Below, piece by piece: positions 9,053 to 14,975 of a DNA stretch of 57,315 nt. Each line of letters opens with the position of its first letter. The first letter of the stretch is position 1. The notes under the pieces were generated by a model, which worked only from the letters and a program-made list of their open reading frames with translations, did not search any database and was not told where the DNA came from. A program made the translations under genes and the position numbers. The DNA comes from Ignavibacteriota bacterium. Lineage in GTDB: Bacteria > Bacteroidota > Ignavibacteria > Kapaibacteriales > UBA2268. Where the stretch lies: the NCBI GenBank assembly GCA_024636855.1, contig JAGXGG010000105.1:1-57315 (forward strand). The letters are read 5' to 3'.

Positions 9053-11836
9053 CTATTGAATAACAAATCTAAGAGTTTGGACATTATTACCAACCTTGAT
9101 AATAGCAAAGTAAGTACCGCTAGCTACTTTAGAGTTAGCCATATCCCTACCGTTCCATACTATCATATTCCTACCAATGGTTGAGTATTCATTATATGCC
9201 ATTTGTTCGATACCCTTCATATCAACTATACTAACTTCATACTTCTGAGCTTCATCGAAATTCAATTCTAATGAGATACTACCTTCAGTGGGATTCGGGA
9301 ATGATTTGACACTGTTTATAGTAGGTATGCCATTCCAAACAGATGATAGTATTGCCTTAGCAGTTAATGGTATTTCTAGTGAGTTACCATCATCAGTTTT
9401 GATTGTTAGCACTTCATTATAATCTTTTTCAGATGTAGGGATGAACTTAACTAGTACATTTACCTTATCAGATGGAGCTAATGTAGTATTGACTAAATCT
9501 GTATAAGTAAAATCACTCGAACTAGCAGTTATCTCTGTTATAGTGATATCTTTAGTCGTCGGATTCTCTATCTCAAAGCTACTCTCAACTTCTTCATTAA
9601 CTACAACGCTACCGAATGATAATGAAGCAGTACTGCTTACTATAGTACCGTTGTCATTAGCTACTCCTCTTAGCTCTAGAGTTACATTATTTAAGGAATT
9701 ACTTTCGAAAGATAGTGTAGCTTGATTAACCCCAATCTTAGTTGGTTTAAAATTGATACCTAAATCAAGATTCGAATTCGGTTCTAAAGTAACAGGCATT
9801 GAAGGGGAACCAATAATAAATGAATTTGACTCGGCACCTGTTATCTTAATTGCAGTGATTATTAGATTTTCATCACCACTATTAGTAACTACTCCAACGA
9901 ATGAATCTGATATAGTTTCACCAACATTTATAGTCCCGAAATCAATAGACTGTACATTAGCTGTGATCGCTGGACCACCATTATTCTCTAATACCTTAAC
10001 TTCTACTTCATTAGATATGGTAGTTAGATCACAATTATTTTTAACTTCAACAGAATATTTGCCTGCATCGTCCAAAGCTACTTTACTAATATTGAACGTA
10101 CTAGTATTAGCATTTGCTATGTTGTTGCCGTTTTTCTTCCATTGGTAAGTTAATTCGTTTTGCTCTCCTCCAGGATTCTCTGCAGTTACTGATAGAGTTA
10201 TACTCTCATCAACAAATACTTCTTTACTAGTTGGTTGAGTTGCTATACTAGGAGCTGAATTGACAGATAATGTCACAACATCTGAGAATAATTTGGTACC
10301 ACATGACCCAATTAGTTCGAGTTTATAGTCACCAATGTCAGAAGGCATTACTTCTGCTATTGTATATTCACGAGAAGTTGCTCCTGTAATCCTTGTATCA
10401 TCTTTGTACCATTGGAAACCAGTTATTGAACCATCAACTTGAGCTGTGAATTTGACTTCACTTCCTTCGCATCCATTAATAGGGTTAGGTTGAGAGACAA
10501 ATTTCGGTTCTTTACTAAGCACTACTTTAGCTATAGATGAAGTAATTTCATTACCACATTTATCGCTTTTAACTAGAAGGGTATAATCACCCTCATCCGA
10601 AGCTATTAAACTATTAATAACAAAATTAGAATTTGTAGCTCCAGTAATCGGCTGACCATTTTTTCTCCATTGTAGTGAAGTGAATTCACCCTCTACAACA
10701 GCACTTAAAGTAACGGAACTACCATCACACCCAGATTTACTTGATGGTTGTGTAGCTATATTTGGAGCCTGGAACACATCAAGTTTTGCTTTAGCCGAAG
10801 TTATAATAACTCCACATGAAGTAGTTATCTGACAATCATAATCACCAGCATCACCTAGTACCGCACTAGAGCGAGTATAAGTAGACTGAGTAGCTCCATT
10901 TACAGGGTTCCCATTCTTTCTCCATTGGTATTGATGACCAGAGCCAGTTACTACTACAGTCATAGCAAATGATTGCCCAGTACATGTTTCGTCGGCTATT
11001 GGCTGAGTAGTTATACTCACTTCACCTACTATGGCAAATGAACTATTGGATAAATCATTTCTAGTTGCTTTCGAAGCGTCACTTACTCGTATTTTATTTG
11101 TAGTTCCGGGAGTTATTCCATTTGGAATAGCCCAGCTAAAACTGCCAGTAGATGCTTGAGTACTAGCTGATATCACATTCCAACTTGAACCACCGTTAGT
11201 AGAGTACTCTAATTTAACATTATCAACTCCATCAGATTTCCAAGTGATATTCTGAGTTGTGCCTACACACCAGTTCTCGCCACCATTAGGTGCCGATACC
11301 GTCACACCAGCAACTGTAACTTTTTGAGTTGTGAATTTATTCCATTGATCACCAGAAGTTCCACCATTGTCATTGACCGCATTGGCTACACCTCGTATCC
11401 AATACTCACCGTGAGTAGCAGGTGCTGTCCAATCGAATGTAAAATCAAATTTACCACTATTCAAAGATTGCTCACCATCATGAGTAACTTCACCACTTTG
11501 TATTTTGGTTCCCGAGCCAGCTGCTAATGTCCCAATATTTGATCCTCCAGTTTCTGATGTTTTGACACCAACGTTCATCCCTGCTTTACTCATCGAAGAA
11601 TTATCTATTGCTACAGTAAATTTAGTTGTTGAACCTGGGTCTACTGTGAATGAGCCACTTCCACTTGTTAATGTTACTTTTGTACTGCTATTTGCAGAGC
11701 CGTGACAAGTGCAGCCATCTTGGGTTTGACCAGTTTTCCCCGCACTCCAAGCTATCGCTGTATAAGTCAAACCTGAGAGCAAAAGAAGAAATATTAGTGA
11801 GTTTAATTTTACTAAATGTTGTCTATAAAAGTTCAT
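9053..11836 (-). CDS. Large secreted multi-domain protein: choice-of-anchor V, Ig-like repeats, choice-of-anchor D, T9SS domain
   Basis: This is a 927-residue exported protein. After a hydrophobic leader it has a choice-of-anchor V/Reeler-like domain (about 32-175) that opens with DGCTCHG. Cys42-Thr-Cys44-His45 is a CxCH, not the classical CxxCH haem motif. Next come a Ser/Thr-rich Ig-like segment (NGGENWCVGTTQNITWKS), four Ig-like repeats each with a Q(W)RKNG or QW(K/Y)K core and paired cysteines in several copies, two choice-of-anchor D domains (IDFGTINVGE, LSFGSVVVNEE) and a T9SS/FlgD-like C-terminus (KSFPNPTEGSISLEL). The last ~400 residues are shared with the neighbour at 7534. It is likely surface-exposed or released; an adhesive role is inferred from the architecture only. 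Confidence 0.87.
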   Translation of the reverse strand: MNFYRQHLVKLNSLIFLLLLSGLTYTAIAWSAGKTGQTQDGCTCHGSANSSTKVTLTSGSGSFTVDPGSTTKFTVAIDNSSMSKAGMNVGVKTSETGGSNIGTLAAGSGTKIQSGEVTHDGEQSLNSGKFDFTFDWTAPATHGEYWIRGVANAVNDNGGTSGDQWNKFTTQKVTVAGVTVSAPNGGENWCVGTTQNITWKSDGVDNVKLEYSTNGGSSWNVISASTQASTGSFSWAIPNGITPGTTNKIRVSDASKATRNDLSNSSFAIVGEVSITTQPIADETCTGQSFAMTVVVTGSGHQYQWRKNGNPVNGATQSTYTRSSAVLGDAGDYDCQITTSCGVIITSAKAKLDVFQAPNIATQPSSKSGCDGSSVTLSAVVEGEFTSLQWRKNGQPITGATNSNFVINSLIASDEGDYTLLVKSDKCGNEITSSIAKVVLSKEPKFVSQPNPINGCEGSEVKFTAQVDGSITGFQWYKDDTRITGATSREYTIAEVMPSDIGDYKLELIGSCGTKLFSDVVTLSVNSAPSIATQPTSKEVFVDESITLSVTAENPGGEQNELTYQWKKNGNNIANANTSTFNISKVALDDAGKYSVEVKNNCDLTTISNEVEVKVLENNGGPAITANVQSIDFGTINVGETISDSFVGVVTNSGDENLIITAIKITGAESNSFIIGSPSMPVTLEPNSNLDLGINFKPTKIGVNQATLSFESNSLNNVTLELRGVANDNGTIVSSTASLSFGSVVVNEEVESSFEIENPTTKDITITEITASSSDFTYTDLVNTTLAPSDKVNVLVKFIPTSEKDYNEVLTIKTDDGNSLEIPLTAKAILSSVWNGIPTINSVKSFPNPTEGSISLELNFDEAQKYEVSIVDMKGIEQMAYNEYSTIGRNMIVWNGRDMANSKVASGTYFAIIKVGNNVQTLRFVIQ

Positions 11837-11952
11837 AAAAGAATCCTATAAATTGATAAATGTATTTGGTTTAATAACAAGAAATTCATATAATAGTTAC
11901 ATAAACAATCAATAAAAATCAGCCACCCGATGTCAGTTATATGTATAATAGC

Positions 11953-12009: not shown

Positions 12010-12831
12010 TTATCCTTGACCAAAACCAGATTGTGCCACTAAATAAAGTGAACCACCTATTCTAATTAAAGTTACTACTTGATTTTCAGAAACATAAATA
12101 TAGCTCCCATTATCTAACTCTATTGTGAAGTAATCAGTACCTTCATTAACAATAGTATAAGTAGCGCCGTTTACTAAGTCGCCACTAAAGTCAGACTCAT
12201 CAATGTTAATAGTAGTATCACCAACGAAAACCATAATATTAGATGTAATACCACCTAATCCAGTAAGATCACTAAACTCGTTTGACGCAAGTTTCAAAAC
12301 TGATGTTACAGTCACTTGACCATCAAAAGTGGCATCTTCCTCGAATGTAGATTCACCTTCAAAAGTTGCATCTCCTTCGAATGTAGTCTCACCTTTGAAA
12401 GTAGCTGTACTATCTACTATTAAATCACCTTCAACTTTCAACTCATCTCCTATTACAACATCAGAAGGTAATTTTTCAGAGCGAGCAGTTACTTCTATTA
12501 ACTCGTCTAATCTGAACTGAGCTACTAAAGTACCATTATCAAAGATATCTAGAATTACATTACTATTTACCCTAGTCGAAGCTATATCACCCCAATCAGG
12601 GTCACCTTCACCGACAACAAATGATGAATAGCCAGAACCATTCGCCGTTACAGTTGGCACAGTAATTGCGTCTATACTATCAACAGCTACAGGAGAGCCT
12701 GATGTATAGTCGTTAAGTTGAGCTGTTAAATTATCACCATCATTATTTAGTACAACAGTAACTGGAGCTAAAGAATAGCCCAGAGTAGTTGCAGCAATAA
12801 GTAGCGATATATAAATAAATAAATTTTTCAT
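12010..12831 (-). CDS. Exported beta-repeat protein of unknown function
   Basis: The 273-residue protein has a signal peptide (MKNLFIYISLLIAATTLGYS, then LAPV) very like that of the gene at 7534. The body has no family I can name. Residues 144-173 are five perfect hexapeptide repeats of the form T-F-x-G/E-x-x, flanked by KVEGDLIVDS, which looks like a small beta-helix or fibre shaft. The C-terminal ~75 residues (INIDESDFSGDLVNGATY ... YVSENQVVTLIRIGGSLYLV) resemble the terminal domain of fibre-like proteins, with a loose parallel to the end of the repeat protein at 55179. No T9SS domain is visible, so its route beyond the periplasm is open. Confidence 0.72.
   Translation of the reverse strand: MKNLFIYISLLIAATTLGYSLAPVTVVLNNDGDNLTAQLNDYTSGSPVAVDSIDAITVPTVTANGSGYSSFVVGEGDPDWGDIASTRVNSNVILDIFDNGTLVAQFRLDELIEVTARSEKLPSDVVIGDELKVEGDLIVDSTATFKGETTFEGDATFEGESTFEEDATFDGQVTVTSVLKLASNEFSDLTGLGGITSNIMVFVGDTTINIDESDFSGDLVNGATYTIVNEGTDYFTIELDNGSYIYVSENQVVTLIRIGGSLYLVAQSGFGQG
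12313..12402. repeat. Five tandem 18-bp units encoding hexapeptide repeats
   Basis: Five consecutive 18-bp units encode TFKGET, TFEGDA, TFEGES, TFEEDA and TFDGQV (residues 144-173 of the minus-strand protein). The DNA units are similar but not identical. They lie within the exported protein at 12010-12831. Confidence 0.88.
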
Positions 12832-13130: not shown

Positions 13131-14363
13131 TTAGAAACTAATTTCAGTACCTATGAATAATCCATCATTCATCTCTTGACGGATGAATTGGTAATCACGT
13201 ACGTAATTTCTTGTATATCCAATTACAATTGGGAAATTAGTCATACCACCTAATGTAGTAGATAGACCAGCTTCCATTTTGTACGATGGATTACTTCCTA
13301 GGAATAGTTGTCCGTTGATGAAAGTATCGAAGTATCCATTTGCTAGCAAGTTAGTAAATGTTGGTGTATATTCTATACCACCTCCAACGAATACAGGGTT
13401 TCTCAAATCTGGATTAGAGTTTTGGTCATACCAAGAAAGCCCAGCCGAGATGATACCTCTAACGTCAGTAGTAAAGTAATTAGTTAAGAAACTAACGTCA
13501 AACTGTCCTGAATTCAGATTGTTAGATGTAGCTTTAGTTCGAATTATTGTTAAGTAGTCTCTAGTATATGTTAGTCCATTAGTTGTAATTGATTTCCCTT
13601 CAAGGAAAATGCTATTATTAGTTTGAAGACCAGTTTTTCTAGAAGTAATTATATTTGATTCCCAAGCTGAGACTAATTCTCTTTTCGTATTTGGAATCGA
13701 AGTAATATTCTCATCAATATTTGTATTGATGCTTACGTTATCGATTTGTTTTGTAGCAATATCACTATTGTTCGAAGCCAAATCAATGCTATTATTAGTA
13801 TTATTCGAGCTAGTATTCATAATGTTATTAGATCTTGTATCTATATTAGTATTACTAGGTGAAATAGCTGGAGTTGAACTCGCGGTATTAGCTAAATCAG
13901 CTTCAACTTCTAGATCCATCGGCTCTTCTTCAATAATTATATTGTTATTATTTGCTTTTTCATACGAACTAACTATTGGTACATTTGAGTTTGTAGCTAC
14001 GTTGTTACTATCTACATCATTCAGAGAATAGAACATAGTGAACGTAAGTAGAGAAGCTGTGAAAGCAGCACCAATAGAGATTAAATTTGCAATTTCAGAA
14101 GACATACTAGTAAGCGAAGGTGCACTAACAGCCAACGGAATACCAAGAGCTAAGAAGACATTGTCCTTTGCTTTTTTAGGTGGTACGAACTCTTCATCAT
14201 CTTTACGAATAGCATTGCTTATTTCACTTAGACGATCCATCTCTGCCTGCATTTCAGGGTTTGATCCTATCATCTTAGTGACTTCAGCTGCTTGCTCGCT
14301 CGACAATTCCCCATCTAGAAGTTGGGTTATTAGTTCGAAGTCGTTATTAGTTAAATTATTCAT
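13131..14363 (-). CDS. Putative trans-envelope anti-sigma factor with C-terminal outer-membrane-barrel-like domain
   Basis: This 410-residue protein is encoded 8 nt overlapping an ECF sigma gene. Residues 1-60 look like a zinc-free anti-sigma domain: LLDGELSSEQAAEVTKMI, then the NPEMQAEMDRLSEI helix. Residues ~91-113 form one transmembrane helix (IANLISIGAAFTASLLTFTM). Residues ~115-249 are an Asn/Ser/Thr-rich, low-complexity linker with an acidic patch (EEEPMDLEVEAD). Residues ~250-410 contain about eight alternating amphipathic strands with aromatic girdle residues (VRGIISAGLSWYDQ, VFVGGGIEYTP, MEAGLSTTLGG, FPIVIGYTRNYV) and end in ...IGTEISF, an outer-membrane-type terminal Phe. Anti-sigma function is inferred from neighbour and N-terminus. 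The barrel is inferred from strand pattern. A folded periplasmic beta domain is the alternative. Confidence 0.72.
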   Translation of the reverse strand: MNNLTNNDFELITQLLDGELSSEQAAEVTKMIGSNPEMQAEMDRLSEISNAIRKDDEEFVPPKKAKDNVFLALGIPLAVSAPSLTSMSSEIANLISIGAAFTASLLTFTMFYSLNDVDSNNVATNSNVPIVSSYEKANNNNIIIEEEPMDLEVEADLANTASSTPAISPSNTNIDTRSNNIMNTSSNNTNNSIDLASNNSDIATKQIDNVSINTNIDENITSIPNTKRELVSAWESNIITSRKTGLQTNNSIFLEGKSITTNGLTYTRDYLTIIRTKATSNNLNSGQFDVSFLTNYFTTDVRGIISAGLSWYDQNSNPDLRNPVFVGGGIEYTPTFTNLLANGYFDTFINGQLFLGSNPSYKMEAGLSTTLGGMTNFPIVIGYTRNYVRDYQFIRQEMNDGLFIGTEISF

Positions 14364-14928
14364 CTTTTTCGTGTTTATTCAAATCAACCAAATATGGTTC
14401 TAATATGTCCTTAATTTTCTGTTTCGCTCGATATATTCGAACTTTAACGTTAGTAAGAGAAGTATCAGTAATCTCAGCTATATCCTGATAAGATAGTCCT
14501 TCATACTCACGGAGTATAAAAACCTCTTTGTAATCTTCAGGTAGTGTCTCCATAGCCATTTTAATAAGATCTAGTAACTCATTATCGTCATTATTATTCT
14601 CTCTGACGAACATGTAATCTTCGTAGCTGACTAATGGCTTTTTCTTTTTCTGAGAATTCACGCACAAATTACGTGCAATCGTCAGAATAAATGCCGGCAC
14701 GTTAGTCATCTCCCTGTCGCTATTAGAGCTCTTATACAACCGTATGAAAGTTTCCTGCAATACATCCTGTGCTTCTTCTTTATTACCAAGGAACCGACGG
14801 CAATAGGCAAAAACTCGAGGAGAATGTCTATCATACAACTCGGAAAAGGCGTTATCTGCCAACTTGCCCCGAGATTGTACTAACTCAAACAGCTCCGGGT
14901 CACTATATTTGTCAAGTTTTGAACCCAT
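14356..14928 (-). CDS. ECF-type RNA polymerase sigma factor
   Basis: The 190-residue sigma-70 family protein has region 2 (FSELYDRHSPRVFAYCRRFL, then EEAQDVLQETFIRLY, the -10 binding helix) and region 4 (LPEDYKEVFILREYEGLSY, then QDIAEITDTSLTNVKVRIYR, the -35 recognition helix-turn-helix). Region 3 is absent, as expected for extracytoplasmic-function sigma factors. The downstream gene, overlapping by 8 nt, encodes the likely cognate anti-sigma factor. Its targets cannot be read from this window. The convergent-looking reading frame at 14912-15100 is a shadow of dapB. Confidence 0.94.
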   Translation of the reverse strand: MGSKLDKYSDPELFELVQSRGKLADNAFSELYDRHSPRVFAYCRRFLGNKEEAQDVLQETFIRLYKSSNSDREMTNVPAFILTIARNLCVNSQKKKKPLVSYEDYMFVRENNNDDNELLDLIKMAMETLPEDYKEVFILREYEGLSYQDIAEITDTSLTNVKVRIYRAKQKIKDILEPYLVDLNKHEKDE

Positions 14929-14975
14929 TACTAATACAATAACAATTATTATTAAAAAATGTTACAACAGAACCT

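Follow-up and report, generated by a model that had tools for sequence, protein, structure and literature searches.

A Dma-like layout with an RseA-type domain in a predicted envelope-spanning anti-sigma factor of an Ignavibacteriota bacterium

The window, that is, the whole stretch of DNA analysed, comprises 57,315 nucleotides of a contig from an Ignavibacteriota bacterium. Two genes on the minus strand occupy positions 13131–14928. The first (14356–14928, minus strand) encodes an ECF sigma factor of 190 aa, in which Pfam recognised sigma regions 2 and 4 over the cut-off (Sigma70_r2, E 6.4e-16; Sigma70_r4_2, E 9.9e-20). The PDB sequence matches of this protein included SigH, SigW, and E. coli sigma-E. 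The second gene (13131–14363, minus strand; 410 codons) encodes an anti-sigma factor of 410 aa with a predicted tether and C-terminal barrel, and its frame overlaps the sigma frame by 8 nt. An earlier sequence-only reading had proposed an ECF sigma factor and its anti-sigma factor at these positions, and both genes were confirmed there.

The family of the anti-sigma factor was collected by a search of 40 related genomes, which gave 68 matches in 28 genomes. A total of 60 loci were retrieved and 59 were analysed; L004, interrupted by a contig end, was left out. All 59 homologues are 375–547 aa long, and each is preceded by an ECF gene in the same orientation, with a gap of −11 to +237 nt; at L028 the sigma frame is split in two pieces. 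The homologue search was among the checks proposed in the earlier reading. The nearest named relative record was Ignavibacteriae bacterium HGW-Ignavibacteriae-4 (81%), and others are named Candidatus Kapaibacterium.

Residues 8–73 of the window protein (14145–14342, minus strand) were predicted to form a helical anti-sigma domain of the RseA/RsiW type, on the basis of AlphaFold2 helices and family profile matches. Helices were placed at residues 8–17, 22–34, 36–54, and 63–73 in the model built from a 13-sequence alignment, and pLDDT was about 78 across residues 11–50. The window protein itself gave no match above the Pfam cut-off (best relevant, zf-HC2 at E 0.28) and a weak match to NCBIfam 'antisigma' (E 0.0018). 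Among the 59 family members, at E≤1, 'antisigma' matched 24 (best 3.9e-9), Pfam RseA_N matched 14 (best 8.8e-5), and Pfam zf-HC2 matched 13. The conserved N-terminal part of the family is of the LDGEL type. The top three PDB sequences found by the N-part profile (A6, 23 sequences) were RseA (1.9e-4), DdvA (0.019), and RsiW (0.022). This family-level evidence relates the N-terminal helical domain to known anti-sigma factors, as in class I anti-sigma factors.

A transmembrane (TM) helix was predicted at residues 93–115 (14019–14087, minus strand) from hydropathy, and AlphaFold2 gave a helix at 89–115 with low confidence. The segment is weakly hydrophobic: the 19-residue mean was 1.62 at position 94, and 1.66 at position 69. 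The best values within residues 61–180 of the other family members were 1.49–2.49. Loss of this helix in homologues had been named as a finding that would speak against the earlier reading; the hydrophobic segment was kept in the 59 analysed homologues. Residues 116–257 (13593–14018, minus strand) form a predicted disordered tether with 44% Asn+Ser+Thr and pLDDT mostly below 40. Little structure was predicted up to residue 257, apart from one short helix at 119–122. Tether length in the 59 members was 101–267 residues with a median of 137, counted by taking the last 165 residues as the barrel.

Residues 266–410 (13134–13568, minus strand) were predicted by AlphaFold2 to form an eight-strand barrel, with strands at 269–279, 282–293, 300–309, 324–333, 345–356, 360–371, 379–389, and 396–409. 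Confidence was low, with a mean pLDDT of 49 overall and 51–70 over the eight strands (13 sequences; L063 and L074, a barrel-less Halieaceae match, were excluded from the folding alignment). When the relative L072 was used as first sequence, eight strands were found at 243–401 with a block pLDDT of 58–91. The eight strands expected in the earlier reading were thus recovered, at low confidence in the window protein, and the confident soluble periplasmic sandwich that would have spoken against it did not appear.

The fold of the predicted barrel was compared with known structures. By VIA-align, the window model matched porin III (Z 13.2), a designed TM barrel (12.6), OprF and NspA (12.4), and OmpA (12.0), and the top 11 rows were membrane barrels. 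Soluble avidins, which are also eight-strand barrels, reached Z 11.3, within 2 Z units of the best. The top four Z values for L072 were 15.0, 14.8, 14.8, and 14.2; its top 22 rows were membrane barrels, and the first avidin stood at row 23 with Z 11.5. OprF, NspA, OmpA, PagL, and designed TM barrels were among the fold matches of one or both models. At E≤1e-3, Foldseek returned nothing from the PDB for the window model, whose best match was Ail (7e-3), and five chains for L072, including OprF (1.5e-4), FadL, and one photosystem chain. On these models, the membrane-barrel reading is stronger for L072 than for the window protein.

The last ten residues, GLFIGTEISF (401–410; 13134–13163, minus strand), have the pattern of an outer-membrane-type C-terminal strand, as judged across the 59 members. 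The window protein ends in Phe, as do 42 of the 59 members in all, and 13 end in Leu. Hydrophobic/polar alternation over the last ten positions (difference over 1) was present in 58/59 members vs 71/207 control ORFs. Alternation within the predicted strands was modest, and shuffles scored as high in 125/5000 cases for the window protein and 770/5000 for L072. The conserved C-terminal part of the family is rich in Gly and aromatic residues and ends in G-x-x-Y-G-x-x-x-x-F. Pfam recognised no barrel in the window protein at E≤1, nor at E≤10 with the first residue removed; OMP_b-brl (PF13505) matched 7/59 family members at E≤1 (best E 9.4e-5). The barrel profile found no outer-membrane protein among PDB sequences, and its three chance matches were at E 1.4 or worse. 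A closed eight-strand barrel with an outer-membrane-type C-terminal strand is the predicted structure, and the models suggest that in both the window protein and L072 the C-terminal domain resembles outer-membrane barrels best.

The distribution of the family was investigated in a sample of the phylum. The family profile matched 209/395 genomes, including 34/34 sampled genomes of the window's own order; no listed unmatched genome was closer than 'same class'. Among the listed matches, the N-part and barrel lay in one frame in 33/34 genomes of the order, and G366 had the barrel part only. Outside the order, the listed matches were mostly to the N-part. Homologues without the barrel exist in other orders and retain the TM helix. 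Ten loci of the same class (L141–L150) encode proteins of 153–157 aa with N-domain and TM helix only, and an ECF gene was found upstream in 7/10. Two further families (f16 and f18, seven loci) have proteins of 442–599 aa with an ECF gene upstream in 7/7, and for three of these the profile alignment extends into the barrel part. In the window genome, which is 96% complete, Sigma70_r2 was matched 16 times, and in six of these cases a barrel-type anti-sigma factor is encoded next to the match. Other layouts were also observed. L159 is one protein of 365 aa in which an anti-sigma-like N-domain and a TM helix precede a region that, by eye, looks like a trypsin-like protease domain. At L192 (G000:C59:1-4000, minus strand, 1155 to the contig end), an ECF gene is followed by a protein of at least 385 aa of another type, with YEEDDAKKLL near its start and a TM segment at 50; its frame runs off the end of the contig. 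A full family member also occurs in a record titled Desulfobulbaceae (L068), probably a misassigned contig.

A predicted ECF promoter, TGTAAC-N16-TGTTATT, lies before the sigma gene (14938–14966, minus strand), where it would provide autoregulation, and it is conserved in L061 and L062. A second copy (11873–11901, minus strand) stands 37 nt before the gene at 9053–11836 (minus strand). The predicted target encoded there is an exported Ig-domain surface protein of 927 aa with a T9SS sorting tail (Pfam Ig_3 1.6e-27 and Por_Secre_tail 1.8e-5, over the cut-off). The pattern TGTAACN{15,17}TGTYATT had 2 matches in the window vs 0.03 expected. L062 (= L003) and L004 retain the second site ahead of the target gene, and in L061 its −10 element differs by one base. 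The related motif GTAAC-N14-19-TGTYWT was found upstream of sigma genes in 14 of the same 59 regions in which it had been discovered, with a spacer of 16 in 12/14; it occurred in 0/59 on the opposite strand, and shuffles gave a mean of 0.09 and at most 2. A looser pattern occurred 11 times genome-wide vs 3 for the reversed control. One of these sites precedes the sigma gene, six lie 7–55 nt before another gene, three are inside frames, and one has no start within 250 nt. The six other predicted target genes all appear exported (6/6 vs 15/49 window genes, by a crude rule applied post hoc), and a T9SS tail is present in three of the six, one below the cut-off. The sigma factor very likely acts on the TGTAAC-N16-TGTTATT promoter to switch on both its own operon and the gene for a T9SS-type surface protein. 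The window genome has an unusually rich set of T9SS cargo, with at least 150 Por_Secre_tail matches. Between the gene pair and the T9SS target lies a gene (12010–12831, minus strand) for an exported protein of 273 aa, part of which weakly resembles bactofilin (E 0.0054); the gene has the same place in L061 and is absent between pair and target in L062 and L004.

The gene after the anti-sigma gene was investigated as a possible third component. By rule, it looks like a lipoprotein gene at 40/59 loci vs 2/23 other ORFs; this count replaced those under narrower rules (19/59 and 37/55). In 10 of the 40, the residues after the chosen Cys are off the common motif, and in some the rule took an earlier Cys. 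A single group linked by phmmer contains 36/40 of the lipoproteins, and several (L006, L007, L010, L013, L014, L016, and others) share the start after the Cys (for example CTSPMDV and CEDSLGI). The same rule gave 14/34 at Dma-type loci (described below), some of them doubtful. The lipoprotein gene is absent from the window locus and from the loci of two close relatives. The phmmer-linked group is likely a third partner of the system. A link between the lipoprotein gene and a GGxxxG barrel motif was dropped (Fisher p 0.078, post hoc, with three lipoprotein calls by eye). At L141–L150, the short anti-sigma genes are followed by a gene for an exported protein, in several cases a lipoprotein. The C-terminus of this exported protein resembles TonB in its motif.

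The gene pair was compared with other known systems. RseA with sigma-E of E. coli (PDB 1or7) shares the N-domain type and the sigma factor type, since RseA was the first PDB match of the N-profile and sigma-E was among the sigma matches. RseA has a short periplasmic domain that is bound by RseB and no barrel, whereas the window family has a predicted tether and barrel. RseB gave 0 matches in the window genome, and an RseB-type system was rejected for the pair. In FecR/FecA cell-surface signalling, an ECF sigma factor is also coupled to the outer membrane, and a separate TonB-dependent receptor is needed. FecR (PF04773) had 0 matches in the 96%-complete window genome and none on the anti-sigma protein, and a FecR-type system was likewise rejected. 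The barrel-less anti-sigma factors L141–L150 have a homologous N-domain (hhalign 98.7) and a TM helix; they differ in having neither tether nor barrel.

The closest known counterpart in layout is the Dma family. According to PMC13088901, Dma2 of Bacteroides thetaiotaomicron consists, 'like other Dma family members', of an anti-sigma domain, a TM helix, a long disordered tether, and a C-terminal beta-barrel, and its gene adjoins an ECF21 sigma factor gene. The same text pairs Dma1/Dma2 of B. theta with the ECF21 sigma factors Das1/Das2, describes ECF21 factors as adjoining Dma genes and reportedly confined to Bacteroidota, and gives the sigma factor's own operon as the most induced upon loss of the Dma anti-sigma factor. 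The window family shares the four-part layout, as predicted, and the adjacent ECF sigma gene. Since published Dma proteins have this four-part layout, the layout itself was already known. The earlier reading, a one-chain route to the outer membrane without a FecA/FecR pair, is partly supported: the predicted parts of the chain, with a barrel resembling those of the outer membrane, and the genome without a FecR match agree with it; its suggestion that none with this layout had been described is not borne out, given Dma2. No paper describing this layout with an RseA-type domain, or reporting it from Kapabacteria, was found within a partial coverage of the literature.

To relate the two families, a Dma-type set was picked by layout: 20 long-frame PF13568 candidates gave 10 with an upstream ECF gene and a barrel, and 35 after the phylum search. 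L135, which has no barrel, was dropped. The comparisons that follow are with these layout-chosen proteins. The Dma-type profile matched 122/395 genomes at E≤1e-5 and only 3/34 of the window's order. The N-domains of the window family and the 35 Dma-type proteins had no detectable relation, with an hhalign probability of 0.2–1.1 in every comparison. As positive controls, the family halves found each other at 97.5 and 99.9, and same-class relatives were found at 98.7 and 99.2, the former being the barrel-less anti-sigma factors. The Dma-type N-domain profile found no anti-sigma factor in the PDB. Barrel profiles of the two families gave hhalign values of 3.7–61 with alignments out of register, and homology of the barrels was not adopted. 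In a quick sigma tree, 34 Dma-type sigma factors, selected by one profile, fell on one side of a branch with SH-aLRT 88. Under the AU test, a tree that forced every barrel-partner sigma factor into a single clade was not rejected and was even slightly better (p 0.539); the sigma tree was therefore not used as evidence, and an argument for independent origin from it was dropped. The phylum search groups the window family with Dma-type genomes; in NCBI, Kapaibacterium is placed in Bacteroidota and the nearest named relative in Ignavibacteriota. The predicted targets also differ from Dma in looking like T9SS-type exported proteins. The window family appears to combine a Dma-like layout with an RseA-type N-domain, and seems to be a second form of one design. 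The N-domains suggest that its origin may be separate from that of Dma, on which the sigma phylogeny is neutral.

With a probability of about 0.75, positions 13131–14928 encode an ECF sigma factor and a partner anti-sigma factor that extends across the entire envelope; the anti-sigma factor would have the Dma layout on an unrelated-looking N-domain, and the pair a promoter of its own and a T9SS target. The pairing, layout, and promoter are supported by sequence, and the mechanism may be outlined as follows. At the inner membrane, the ECF sigma factor would be held by the RseA-type class I domain. From there the chain would pass through the membrane as one TM helix and through the periplasm as a tether of roughly 140 residues, and would end in the predicted eight-strand barrel in the outer membrane. 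If the barrel changes, through a ligand or because its insertion into the outer membrane fails or is lost, the tether or TM helix may become exposed to proteolysis, and the sigma factor may be released. Inhibition by the N-domain, the outer-membrane location of the barrel, and proteolytic release are what we infer from this arrangement. In E. coli, unfolded outer-membrane proteins trigger RseA cleavage. One site-2-type protease is present in the window genome, which is weak support for the mechanism because such proteases were also present in 14/14 control genomes.

The C-terminal domain could instead be a soluble periplasmic eight-strand barrel, which would make the protein a conventional single-pass anti-sigma factor carrying its sensor domain in the periplasm. 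The avidin-like matches to both models, the low confidence of the window model, and the non-significant strand alternation in L072 agree with this, but membrane barrels fill the leading rows for both models, nearly every member carries the outer-membrane-type C-terminal strand, PF13505 matches occur in the family, and in no member is the tether shorter than about 100 residues; a soluble domain is quite improbable. A second question is whether the protein is a plain Dma family member, sharing an ancestor with Dma, its N-domain diverged beyond detection and the sigma factors forming one ECF group. The same layout, gene order, and GTDB phylum, the AU result for one partner-sigma clade, and the weak similarity of barrel profiles would fit common descent. 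The N-domains, however, are related to the barrel-less same-class anti-sigma factors and in no comparison to Dma-type proteins, only the window-family profile finds RseA in the PDB, and the barrel alignments are out of register, so that plain membership of Dma seems rather unlikely.

The signal is a separate matter. The barrel may sense an outside ligand such as a glycan rather than outer-membrane assembly, and the sigma factor would then induce a surface protein to match. By the crude rule given above, predicted targets look exported more often than window genes do, and PMC13088901 carries the hypothesis for Dma2 that a glycan is sensed at the cell surface. Set against these points, neither a ligand site nor a conserved surface loop was recognised, and the window copy lacks the lipoprotein gene that accompanies most relatives. 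Sensing of a ligand is a real possibility, although short of probable.

Within the envelope-spanning reading, what is new is the predicted TGTAAC-N16-TGTTATT promoter, which in the window stands upstream of two genes, that of the sigma factor and that of the T9SS-type surface protein. A wider proposal, more speculative and at present doubtful, is that the Bacteroidota group evolved anti-sigma factors of the envelope-spanning kind on two or more occasions, once as Dma, on an N-domain of its own, and once by joining an RseA-type domain to an outer-membrane barrel. The latter would be a one-chain sigma-E pathway in which the C-terminal strand of the barrel would be buried only upon successful assembly, would report on outer-membrane assembly, and would set the expression of type IX-exported surface proteins. 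If the envelope-spanning reading is true, one-chain outer-membrane tethering of an anti-sigma factor would not be peculiar to Bacteroides and would have been reached with a different anti-sigma domain, and the design would be used six times in a single genome without a FecR match. It would offer a testable route from the state of the outer membrane to surface-protein expression, with a defined promoter sequence.
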